From the NCBI GenBank assembly GCA_009845425.1, contig VXZQ01000006.1, positions 124,001 through 188,000 on the forward strand: a DNA stretch of 64,000 bases, in the 5' to 3' direction. Source of the DNA: Holophagales bacterium. Its GTDB lineage: Bacteria > Acidobacteriota > Thermoanaerobaculia > Multivoradales > Multivoraceae. The position numbers and the translations under genes are program-made. Positions 19,285 to 22,769 of this stretch are shown here, one piece after another (the first letter of the stretch is position 1; the number at the start of each line of letters is the position of its first letter). The notes under the pieces are model-generated. The model saw nothing but the letters and a program-made list of their open reading frames with translations, made no database searches and was not told the DNA's origin.

Positions 19285-20049
19285 TCAGCTCAAAGTAGCA
19301 GCACCGTCGCGAGCACCCAGCCAGTACAGATTCTGGCGGCCACCGGGCCCATCGGAACGGTAGCGGGCAACTTCGGCAAGCCGGAGGCCATGAGTGAGAC
19401 GATCGAGTTCCGATTCGTCGGTGTGGTGGCAGTAGCGGCGGGCCTGAGAGTTGCCCGGCCCCCAGCGCAGCAGATGGTCTCCGGGTTCGAGTTCCGCCGG
19501 GTCGACATCTGCTTCCGAGGCCCAGTCGAGCCGGCGGCGCTCGAAACCGGGGTCGTCCCCGAACTGCCAGCAGGTGAGGGCGAGGAGACCGCCGGGGCCC
19601 GCGGCGGATGCGGCGCGTTCGAGGGCGCGGCGGCGCGTGTCGAAGCCGGGGAGGTGGTGGAGAACGCCGAAGAGGGTGACGAGGTGGTAGGTCGAATCGT
19701 CGAGGGTGCAGTTCTCGATGTCGTCGACCTCGAACCGGATGTGGTCAAGGCCCTCGCAGGCCGCTCGGGCGTGGTCGATCAGCTCGCTGCTGAGGTCGAT
19801 GCCGTGGTAGACGAACGGCCGGTCTTGCCGAAGTTGGGAGTTGTGCTCCAGGAACAGGGCGAAACGGCCATTGCCGCAGCCGAGGTCGAGGACCCGCAAG
19901 GGACGGTTCGTGGTTTGGGCCGCGGTTTCGACGACCCGACGCCAGCCCGGCCAGCCGCCCGCGTGGCGGGTGCGGTCGAAGTCGGCGGCGTGGCGGCTGT
20001 AGAAGTCGCGGTTGATCCGGCTGAGCGCTGCTTGGGTTGGCGTGTTCAT
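19285..20049 (-). CDS. Trm9/ALKBH8-like tRNA methyltransferase
   Basis: A 254-residue class I S-adenosylmethionine methyltransferase. The SAM site is LRVLDLGCGNGRFALFL (51-67), then YHGIDLSSELIDHA, and FGVLHHLPGF. Unlike generic members it follows the Trm9 plan along its length: an FYSRHAADFDRTRH opening, a CWQFGD block after the GG turn, GDHLLRW, then RYCHHTDESELDRL and a final NLYWLG strand. In eukaryotes Trm9 methylates the cm5U made by Elongator to mcm5U. An Elp3 gene starts 0.9 kb away on the other strand. The family is certain; the tRNA role is inference. A Trm112-like partner is not visible here. Confidence 0.72.
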   Translation of the reverse strand: MNTPTQAALSRINRDFYSRHAADFDRTRHAGGWPGWRRVVETAAQTTNRPLRVLDLGCGNGRFALFLEHNSQLRQDRPFVYHGIDLSSELIDHARAACEGLDHIRFEVDDIENCTLDDSTYHLVTLFGVLHHLPGFDTRRRALERAASAAGPGGLLALTCWQFGDDPGFERRRLDWASEADVDPAELEPGDHLLRWGPGNSQARRYCHHTDESELDRLTHGLRLAEVARYRSDGPGGRQNLYWLGARDGAATLS

Positions 20050-20072
20050 GGCCGGCGCACCGGCAGTGGGCG

Positions 20073-20885
20073 CTACGGTGCGCCCAGGCTGAGCCCGCCG
20101 TCGACAGCGAGCAGGGCTCCCGTGATCCAGTCGTTCGCCGGGTCGCAGAGGAAGACGACGGCGCGCGCGACGTCGTCCGGCTCGCCGACGCGGCCCATCG
20201 GCACCTCGTTGCCGAAGCCTTCGAGGAAGGCGGCGGCCTCGTCCGGCGGCATGATCGTCTCGAAGATCGGGGTACGCACGACGCCGGGAAGCACCGCGTT
20301 GACCCGAATGCGGTCGCCGGCGAGTTCGGCCGCAAGGCTGCGGGTCAGCGCGTCGACGCCGGCCTTCGCGGCCGTGTAGACGGAGCAGTTGGCGAGCGGC
20401 GATTGTGTGAGCGACGACGAGATGTTGACGATCGAGGCGTCGCCGCGACCCGCGCGGAGATGGGGGATCGTGGCCCGGGTCGCGAACAGCACGCCCTTCA
20501 GGTCGACATCGATGACGAGGTCGACCGGGTCGGGTTCGGTTTCGTCGCTCTCGGCCGCGAGCGGACCGGCGCGGTAGACGCCGGCGCAGTTGACGAGGAT
20601 GTCCAGCCCTCCGAGTTCGCGTGCCGCTTCGTCAACGAGCTCCCGCGCGCCTTCCGCGGTCGAGATGTCGCCGGCGACGGCGACGGCGCGAAGGCCGAGC
20701 GCGCGCAGGTCGGCGGCGGCCGTTTCGACCACCTCCCGGCGGCGGCCGCCGAGGGTGATGCCGCATCCGCCCCGGGCAAGGGCACGGCCGATCGCCAGTC
20801 CGATGCCGCTGCCGCCGCCCGTGATCAAGGCCGCCCGCGCCTCGAACGGTGTCCCGGTGCCCGTCTCGCTGGCTGTGGTCGTCAT
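20073..20885 (-). CDS. Short-chain dehydrogenase/reductase
   Basis: A 270-residue NAD(P)-dependent oxidoreductase of the SDR family. The cofactor motif is ITGGGSGIG, followed by LVNCAGVY, catalytic Ser in NISSSLTQS, and YTAAK. The end GALLAVDGGLSLG is the usual SDR tail. I placed the start at ATG 20885, since the longer frame adds residues unlike the family. It lies 23 bases before the Trm9-like gene and diverges from elp3 across 48 bases. The substrate is unknown. Confidence 0.9.
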   Translation of the reverse strand: MTTTASETGTGTPFEARAALITGGGSGIGLAIGRALARGGCGITLGGRRREVVETAAADLRALGLRAVAVAGDISTAEGARELVDEAARELGGLDILVNCAGVYRAGPLAAESDETEPDPVDLVIDVDLKGVLFATRATIPHLRAGRGDASIVNISSSLTQSPLANCSVYTAAKAGVDALTRSLAAELAGDRIRVNAVLPGVVRTPIFETIMPPDEAAAFLEGFGNEVPMGRVGEPDDVARAVVFLCDPANDWITGALLAVDGGLSLGAP

Positions 20886-20933
20886 CGCCTCGTCGCCCCC
20901 AAGCGCCTGGTGCCGCCGTAGTAGGTTCCCGTC

Positions 20934-22769
20934 ATGGCGGCGACAATAGCCCCGAAGCGTTTCTCCTTCGAGCCCGAAGAACACGCGGCGGAGCTGGACG
21001 CGATCATCGGCGCCATCGAGAGCGCGTCACGCTTCGAGGCGCGTGATCTCGACGATCTGCTGCGCCGCCACCCGAAGAACGGCAGGGGTTTCTTCTCGAA
21101 GAGCGAGTTGATCCGCGGCTATCGCGCGCTTCGGCCCGATTCGGCGGGCGAGCAGACCTTCGTCGACCGGGTGCGGATGAAGCCGGTCCGAACGCGGAGC
21201 GGCGTGGCGCCGGTGACCGTGCTGACCAAGCCCTTCCCGTGCCCGGGCCGGTGCATCTTCTGCCCGAGCGACGTGCGGATGCCGAAGAGCTACCTGTCGT
21301 CCGAGCCCGGCGCCCAGCGGGCCGCCGAACACCAGTTCGATCCCTACCGCCAGACCCTCTCCCGCCTCCGCTCCTACCGCCACACCGGGCATCCGGTCGA
21401 CAAGGTGGAGTTGATCGTCCTCGGCGGCACCTGGTCGAGCTATCCGGAGGGCTACCAGGTCTGGTTCATACTGCGCTGTCTCCAGGCGATGAACGAGTTC
21501 GTCGACGTGTCGTCCAAGCCGGTGGTGGATCCGTTGCTGACCTTCGCTCCCGCGGTGGACTTTCGGCACCTCGAGGAGACGGTGCGGGGTGCGGAGGTCG
21601 GCCCGTCGGATGCGGCAGCGAGCCGCAGCTACAACCAGGTCGTTTCCGACTGGACCGCCGCCCATCCGCGAGCGGCGGCCGAGGCGCGCAAGCAGAACGC
21701 GGACTGGGCCGACTTGCTGGCGGCGCAGCGGAAGAACGAGACCTCGACGGTCCGCTGCGTCGGGCTGTCGCTCGAGACCCGGCCCGACCGGCTCGACGCG
21801 GCGGAGGCGCTGCGTATGCGGCGGCTCGGGGCGACCAAGGTCCAGATCGGCATCCAGAGCATGGACGACGATGTGCTGGCCCTCAATGGCCGCGGCCACG
21901 ACACGGCACGGTCGCGGCGCGCCGTGCGCCTTCTGCGCCAGGCCGGGTTCAAGATCCAGGCGCACTGGATGCCGAATCTCCACGGTTCCACGCCGGCCAG
22001 GGACAGGGAGGACTTCGACCGGCTGTTCGCGGATCCCGACGTACGTCCGGACGAGCTCAAGGTCTATCCGTGCTCCTTGATCGAGAGTGCCGAACTGATG
22101 GCGTACCACCGGCGCGGCGAGTGGCTTCCGTACGAGACGGACGAGCTGCTCGACGTCCTGGTTCACGGTCTGGGCGGCGCGCCGCGCTACTGCCGCCTCA
22201 GCAGGGTAATCCGCGACATTCCCGGCACGGACATCGTCACCGGCAACCGCACGACGAACCTGCGTCAGGTGGCCGAGGTCGAAGCGTCGGCGCGCGGGAT
22301 CCGCTGCCGGGACATCCGCGCCCGCGAGGTCGGCGGCCGCCCGGTCGATCCGCGCCGGCTTCGCCTGCGCCGCACGGACTACGGGGCGTCGGGCGGCCGG
22401 GAGACCTTCCTCGAGTTCGTGACCGCGAATGACCGGATCGCGGGGTTCCTGCGGCTTCACATGCCCGGGCAGCCCGCCACGGACGACATCTCGCTCCCGG
22501 AGCTGGCGAACAGGGCGATCATCCGCGAGGTGCACGTCTACGGAGCGGTCGTCAGCCTGGGCGAGCGGGAGGAGGGACGGTCGCAGCACGTCGGCCTCGG
22601 CCGGCGCCTGATCGCCGAGGCGCTGGACATCGCGGCCGGCGCCGGGTTTGGTCAGGTGGCCGTCATCTCCTCGGTCGGCACACGCGAGTACTACCGCCGG
22701 CTCGGCTTCGAGGACGGCGAGCTGTACCAGCACAGGTCGGCGCGGGAGCCGCTGGAGACTCCGACGTGA
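20934..22769 (+). CDS. elp3: Elp3: radical SAM/GNAT tRNA U34 carboxymethylation enzyme
   Basis: A 611-residue homologue of the catalytic Elongator subunit, which makes 5-carboxymethyl-uridine-type changes at wobble U34 from acetyl-CoA. The radical SAM site is FPCPGRCIFCP: Cys103, Cys107, Cys110 bind the 4Fe-4S cluster. The core has VGLSLETRPD and KVQIGIQSMDDDVLALNGRGH. The C-terminal GNAT domain has REVHVYGAVVSLG, QHVGLGRRLIAEA and REYYRRLGF. The length matches archaeal and eukaryotic Elp3. It is common in archaea and eukaryotes and sporadic in bacteria. It overlaps pncB by GTGA, so it is translated with NAD-salvage genes. Confidence 0.95.
   Translation: MAATIAPKRFSFEPEEHAAELDAIIGAIESASRFEARDLDDLLRRHPKNGRGFFSKSELIRGYRALRPDSAGEQTFVDRVRMKPVRTRSGVAPVTVLTKPFPCPGRCIFCPSDVRMPKSYLSSEPGAQRAAEHQFDPYRQTLSRLRSYRHTGHPVDKVELIVLGGTWSSYPEGYQVWFILRCLQAMNEFVDVSSKPVVDPLLTFAPAVDFRHLEETVRGAEVGPSDAAASRSYNQVVSDWTAAHPRAAAEARKQNADWADLLAAQRKNETSTVRCVGLSLETRPDRLDAAEALRMRRLGATKVQIGIQSMDDDVLALNGRGHDTARSRRAVRLLRQAGFKIQAHWMPNLHGSTPARDREDFDRLFADPDVRPDELKVYPCSLIESAELMAYHRRGEWLPYETDELLDVLVHGLGGAPRYCRLSRVIRDIPGTDIVTGNRTTNLRQVAEVEASARGIRCRDIRAREVGGRPVDPRRLRLRRTDYGASGGRETFLEFVTANDRIAGFLRLHMPGQPATDDISLPELANRAIIREVHVYGAVVSLGEREEGRSQHVGLGRRLIAEALDIAAGAGFGQVAVISSVGTREYYRRLGFEDGELYQHRSAREPLETPT

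Follow-up and report, generated by a model that had tools for sequence, protein, structure and literature searches.

An Elp3 gene paired with a Trm9-like methyltransferase: a candidate wobble-uridine modification module in MnmG-lacking Thermoanaerobaculia

Elp3 and Trm9-type enzymes in described systems and in a Holophagales genome

5-methoxycarbonylmethyluridine at the tRNA wobble position (mcm5U34) has so far been regarded as a hallmark of eukaryotes that extends to archaea only to a limited degree. In Saccharomyces cerevisiae and human, the pathway combines Elongator, with its Elp3 subunit, and the methyltransferase Trm9/ALKBH8-Trm112. For archaea, Elp3 (without the other Elongator subunits) and Trm9 homologues have been predicted in Haloferax volcanii and Sulfolobus solfataricus, with clustered genes in the latter (PMC2584109; reviewed in PMC5372719), and (m)cm5U34, the ester or its 5-carboxymethyluridine (cm5U34) precursor, has been reported in H. 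volcanii (PMC6367351). The bacterial U34 product given in reference texts is 5-(carboxymethyl)aminomethyluridine, (c)mnm5U, made via MnmE/MnmG (MnmEG) (PMC5400242, PMC2584109), which acts on the same split-box tRNAs, likewise at C5 of U34. Elp3 is known in some bacteria (PMC6367351), among them the stand-alone enzyme of Dehalococcoides mccartyi (structure 5l7j), and the accessible part of that work deals with Elp3 only, mentioning neither a partner methyltransferase nor a product further downstream (PMC6367351). According to a 2017 review, homologues of the eukaryotic methyltransferases that depend on Trm112 could not be detected in bacterial genomes, and bacterial Trm112 had no known function (PMC5372719). 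Here we analyse a stretch of 64,000 nucleotides (the window) from a Holophagales bacterium of the class Thermoanaerobaculia, Acidobacteriota (GCA_009845425.1, contig VXZQ01000006.1), in which an Elp3 gene lies near a gene for a Trm9-like methyltransferase.

A preliminary description of the window had noticed this pairing and proposed a two-step mcm5U pathway. We confirmed the pairing, and the pathway interpretation gained support from the results below: Elp3 probably makes cm5U34, which the methyltransferase would esterify to mcm5U34, and in this bacterium a two-enzyme pathway of the eukaryotic/archaeal kind would take the place of MnmEG at the wobble uridine. As in eukaryotes, there are two enzyme classes, the radical S-adenosylmethionine (SAM) and KAT motifs of Elp3 are intact, and the methyltransferase shares with Trm9 the TRxxPW N-terminal block, the GCGNG SAM motif, HH, the xxLLxW lid, R-Y-x-H and the N-x-Y/W C-terminal block. 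In contrast to eukaryotes, the two genes are divergent neighbours on bacterial DNA, the genome encodes the bacterial thiolase MnmA, and Elp1-2 and Elp4-6 are not expected (no search was made for them). The stand-alone Elp3 and the gene clustering resemble the archaeal arrangement, whereas this pair belongs to a bacterial class in which other families rely on MnmG. The earlier view that a two-step pathway in one bacterial locus would be new is refined by the prediction of an Elp3/Trm9 cluster in archaea (PMC2584109); the type of pathway was already known, and its bacterial occurrence as a replacement for MnmEG appears to be unreported. We found no later report of a bacterial Elp3/Trm9-type pair in the open literature; subscription papers and preprints lay outside this scope, so an unseen report is possible.

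Sequence, profile and fold of the two enzymes

Elp3 matched TIGR01211 with 471.6 bits (curated cut-off 350) and Elp3 structures in the PDB with a best E-value of 3.4e-103 (1.4e-99 for D. mccartyi Elp3, 5l7j). Its CPGRCIFC motif (C103/C107/C110) and QHVGLG, an instance of Q-x-x-G-x-G, are intact and common to 11 homologues from other genomes (12 aligned), which bears out the earlier statement that the CxxxCxxC and GNAT parts are complete. Residues ~191-258 (window ~21504-21707) form an insertion in the radical SAM domain with a conserved YNxVVS-like motif, found in most Elp3s of the order and in the distant genome G001, and missing in G028 and, by alignment with the PDB sequence, in M. infernus Elp3; the insertion distinguishes this bacterial clade, G028 excepted, from archaeal Elp3.

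For the methyltransferase, Pfam and NCBIfam gave generic methyltransferase models only, and a phmmer search of the PDB with the single sequence did not reach Trm9, while the family profile did. The underlying alignment comprised 19 homologues from Thermoanaerobaculia, down to 35% identity, and the top PDB match of the profile was Yarrowia lipolytica Trm9 (5cm2, E 7.6e-13), the only one of the top three matches whose alignment also takes in the TRxxPW block ahead of the SAM core. In profile-profile comparison with two yeast Trm9s, the family aligned over 199 columns, extending past RYYH (98.9% probability, E 2e-17), at an aligned identity of only ~23%. Generic control alignments covered 59 to 185 columns, mostly SAM core, with lower summed probability, and Trm9 gave the longest confident profile alignment. 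The AlphaFold model (pLDDT 91.9, pTM 0.91) has a class I SAM methyltransferase fold with the SAM motif. Fold comparison matched class I methyltransferases in the hundreds, their scores tied: among the best 50 Foldseek rows, 5cm2 ranked 17 with the best target-normalised TM (0.77), and among the best 50 VIA-align rows METTL6, NTMT1 and others had tied Z, with 5cm2 not among the matches listed.

The family was also aligned with yeast Trm9 to compare residues known to position cm5U34/tRNA. In the yeast enzyme, the mutations R29A, H115A, R241A, Y243A and N271A weaken tRNA binding and reduce kcat, with SAM binding unaffected (PMC5372719). The yeast sequence used was checked: it matches 5cm2 with E 9.9e-71, and its residues 29, 115, 241, 243 and 271 are R, H, R, Y and N as published (PMC5372719); 5cm2 itself entered the alignment as two matched pieces, without the short stretch between them. 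The five positions correspond to R28, H131, R205, C207 and N240 of the window's methyltransferase, so that four of the five are identical. This R/H/R/N quartet is present in every family member covering each site and in both yeast Trm9s, and in 0 of 27 control methyltransferases (from the window's genome, the best out-of-class matches in the phylum and viral contigs). The five sequence blocks that had been listed in Trm9 order are all present, and their order is not due to chance, because homologues from five families, at 35-47% identity, keep it and because residues outside the core match yeast Trm9 position by position. The claim that the enzyme follows Trm9 along its length is upheld by this conservation of Trm9-specific residues outside the core. 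Five methyltransferases from the window's genus (L036, L037, L039, L041, L042) carry an in-frame Arg-rich insert of ~25 residues (EGRRQSRRRSSRRLRRQRV...) between the LLRW and RYCH blocks, at the site where yeast Trm9 bears a long Lys/Glu-rich insert.

Distribution in the class and the remaining U34 enzymes

We used a class sample of 120 Thermoanaerobaculia genomes and a phylum sample of 396 Acidobacteriota genomes. Within the class, Elp3 was found in 34 genomes; the methyltransferase occurred in 32 of these 34 and in none of the 86 genomes without Elp3, and MnmG in none of the 34 and in 58 of the 86. Because the genomes are related, Fisher tests were based on family-level counts (methyltransferase with Elp3, p = 7e-4; MnmG against Elp3, p = 0.038); the genome-level values are extreme. 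Co-occurrence of Elp3 and the Trm9-like enzyme, suggested as a check in the preliminary description, is therefore observed. In the phylum sample, Elp3 and full-length copies of the methyltransferase are confined to Thermoanaerobaculia. A methyltransferase match in G118 was rejected, as it belongs to a different methyltransferase family and the motifs are missing. Archaea are not known to have MnmEG, and four archaeal control genomes gave no match to MnmG. Searches of plasmids gave no relevant methyltransferase and one haloarchaeal Elp3, with no annotated methyltransferase within 6 kb; viral contigs gave generic methyltransferases only, and contigs with homologues of the window protein were labelled Acidobacteriota, mostly Thermoanaerobaculia or Holophagales.

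The two genes also stay together. They are divergent and within 3.5 kb of each other in 26 of 32 genomes, from five families. They are immediate neighbours in families f17, f4 and f6, as far as members of these were examined, and in one member of f7; in other f7 members additional DNA separates them. In the genus member G037, a complete methyltransferase gene lies 1.9 Mb from Elp3, and there are gene fragments at G037:C1:3306980-3307231 (C-terminal 84 aa) and 1187552-1187671 (N-terminal 40 aa); another genus member, G077, has a fragment at G077:C1:535742-535852 (C-terminal 37 aa).

The window's genome is 98% complete. It gave no match to MnmG (TIGR00136), GTPase-domain matches only to MnmE (TIGR00450; <= 90.6 bits, cut-off 252.6) and a best score of 24.2 bits to CmoB (TIGR00452; cut-off 275), so that mnmE and mnmG, whose status had been singled out for checking, are both missing. 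The absence of MnmE and CmoB removes the usual bacterial C5 pathways at U34 as well as a CmoM-type role. Present, by contrast with these, are MnmA, which makes 2-thiolation likely, a Trm112-like zinc-knuckle protein of 85 aa, and genes for all the tRNAs that carry mcm5U or its 2-thio derivative (mcm5s2U) in yeast, namely Arg(UCU), Gly(UCC), Lys(UUU), Gln(UUG) and Glu(UUC). The mnmA gene of this genome (G000) is split by a contig break, its N-terminal part ending contig C10 at 43.6 kb and its C-terminal part lying at the end of C12 (L198, L212), which suggests that C10 and C12 join there.

Proposed pathway, alternatives and locus layout

In the pathway that we propose, Elp3 alone, without other Elongator subunits, would use SAM radical chemistry and acetyl-CoA to place a 5-carboxymethyl group on U34 of tRNAs such as the five listed above. 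That cm5U34 is the product is predicted from family conservation: the activity of archaeal members has been shown biochemically, and structures have been solved for bacterial and archaeal ones (PMC6367351, PMC13315578, PMC5372719). R28, H131, R205 and N240 of the methyltransferase would then orient cm5U34, and the SAM methyl group would be transferred to the carboxylate by SN2, giving mcm5U34, a step suggested by the residue identity with yeast Trm9. MnmA may further thiolate the Lys, Glu and Gln tRNAs to mcm5s2U34, and the Elp3/methyltransferase pair would substitute for the missing MnmE/MnmG. A more elaborate version is tentative and on balance doubtful: a hybrid mcm5s2U34 pathway would have displaced MnmEG in a bacterial order, with the eukaryotic-type C5 side chain built by stand-alone Elp3 and by a Trm9-like enzyme that the Trm112-like protein activates, and with the sulphur added by MnmA. 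If true, this version would give a first function to the orphan bacterial Trm112-like family.

Several observations weigh against the proposal that the pair makes mcm5U34. The top match of the family profile, 5cm2, scores 51.3 bits, versus 51.3 for 5wp5 and 51.1 for 3bus, generic enzymes matched in the SAM core only, and since the margin is nil, the Trm9 assignment is not decided by score alone; generic control methyltransferases can equal the Trm9 score and several from the phylum exceed it. A better match to another family had been named as a point that would speak against the assignment: no named family is clearly better, and 5cm2 stands at the top, level in bits with generic enzymes. Function cannot be told from the fold, on which hundreds of class I methyltransferases tie. 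The equivalent of yeast Y243 is Cys in 18 of 19 family members, including the window's, and Leu in one, and for this reason we call the enzyme Trm9-like, not Trm9; the change could alter its fine specificity. Two Elp3-positive genomes lack the methyltransferase, G053 (same order, 500 contigs) and G001 (distant, a 2-Mb genome). Both MnmG and Elp3 are missing from 28 of the 120 class genomes (e.g. G005, G049, G065, G069), one of them listed as 100% complete, showing that MnmG loss is broader than Elp3 gain and does not require Elp3. Correlation between Elp3 and methyltransferase divergence (mirror-tree) is weak and not significant (Spearman 0.28, p 0.15). Finally, a Trm112-like gene is found in 113 of the 120 class genomes regardless of Elp3 status; the gene looked for following the preliminary description is thus present and not discriminating, and because it is near-universal in the class it offers no specific support or evidence of partnership.

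In one alternative, the methyltransferase does act on the Elp3 product and yields something other than the simple ester, such as a further derivative or an intermediate on the way to 5-carbamoylmethyluridine (ncm5U), or it acts on a cm5U-related side chain. The replacement of the substrate-contacting Y243 and the low identity to Trm9 would fit such a product; we nevertheless consider it unlikely, as the methyltransferase retains the remaining four residues that orient the substrate, and the homologues of the window's neighbouring genes, which were the ones tested, included no amidase or hydroxylase as a conserved neighbour. The near-equal scores of generic models would also fit a generic methyltransferase of small molecules or proteins that stays linked to Elp3 by common descent and without functional meaning, all the more as most linked genomes belong to one order and are not independent. 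Against this, homologues of 35-47% identity all keep the Trm9-specific residues outside the SAM core, the linkage persists in families where the window's other neighbours were not found, and families of the order without Elp3 are also without the methyltransferase, which together leave little room for this explanation. A CmoM-like enzyme methylating 5-carboxymethoxyuridine (cmo5U34), unconnected with Elp3 chemistry, is very improbable: CmoM (8joz) is among the PDB matches (E 4.7e-9 by profile, Z 19.3 by fold), but it scores below Trm9 in the profile search, CmoB, required for cmo5U, is missing, and the methyltransferase tracks Elp3.

The above analyses suggest that a group of Acidobacteria without the usual wobble-base enzymes makes a "eukaryotic-type" tRNA modification. 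With a bacterial Elp3/Trm9-like module exclusive of MnmG, a near-universal bacterial tRNA modification would have been replaced by a non-orthologous one. Such a module offers a concrete downstream role for bacterial Elp3 and makes the function of bacterial Trm112 directly testable; if the reading is true, a pathway for which yeast needs at least 15 proteins could also be studied there in minimal form.

The features of the locus are listed in Table 1. Both open reading frames (ORFs) were found where the preliminary description had placed them, divergent, with that of a short-chain dehydrogenase/reductase (SDR) between, and their start-to-start distance of 885 bp agrees with the 0.9 kb given there.

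Table 1. Genes, motifs and Trm9-equivalent codons of the Elp3/methyltransferase locus (window positions).
Feature	Position	Strand	Assignment and basis
Trm9-like SAM-dependent methyltransferase, 254 aa	19285-20049	-	Proposed cm5U34 carboxymethyl O-methyltransferase; family profile and AlphaFold model
Methyltransferase Asn240 codon (yeast Trm9 Asn271)	19330-19332	-	Alignment; N in 18/18 members covering the site
Methyltransferase Arg205 codon in RYCH (yeast Trm9 Arg241 in RYYH)	19435-19437	-	Alignment; 19/19 invariant
Methyltransferase His131 codon (yeast Trm9 His115)	19657-19659	-	Alignment; 19/19 invariant
Methyltransferase Arg28 codon (yeast Trm9 Arg29)	19966-19968	-	Alignment; R in 18/18 family members covering the site
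SDR-family oxidoreductase	20073-20885, ORF open to 20984	-	Between methyltransferase and Elp3
Elp3, 611 aa, radical SAM and GNAT/KAT domains	20934-22769	+	Proposed cm5U34 synthase; TIGR01211 and PDB matches
Elp3 radical SAM [4Fe-4S] motif, C103-x3-C107-x2-C110	21240-21263	+	Sequence; kept in 12 aligned Elp3s
Elp3 KAT domain acetyl-CoA binding motif, QHVGLG	22584-22601	+	Alignment with PDB Elp3s; Q-H-x-G-x-G in aligned Elp3s

The SDR most likely starts at the ATG at 20885. Its position between the divergent genes, as first described, stands for this locus; it is a local insertion in the window's family (f1) and not part of the module, for an SDR between the two genes or beside the methyltransferase was seen in f1 only. 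The same holds for nicotinate phosphoribosyltransferase (NAPRT), which lies directly beside Elp3 in f1 only. We therefore rejected the SDR and NAPRT as module parts; the conserved unit is the Elp3/methyltransferase pair and not the surrounding genes. Elsewhere in the genome, ARAGORN identified a tRNA-Sec gene (anticodon tca) at L170:726-824 on contig C12 of G000, so the window's genome may use selenocysteine.

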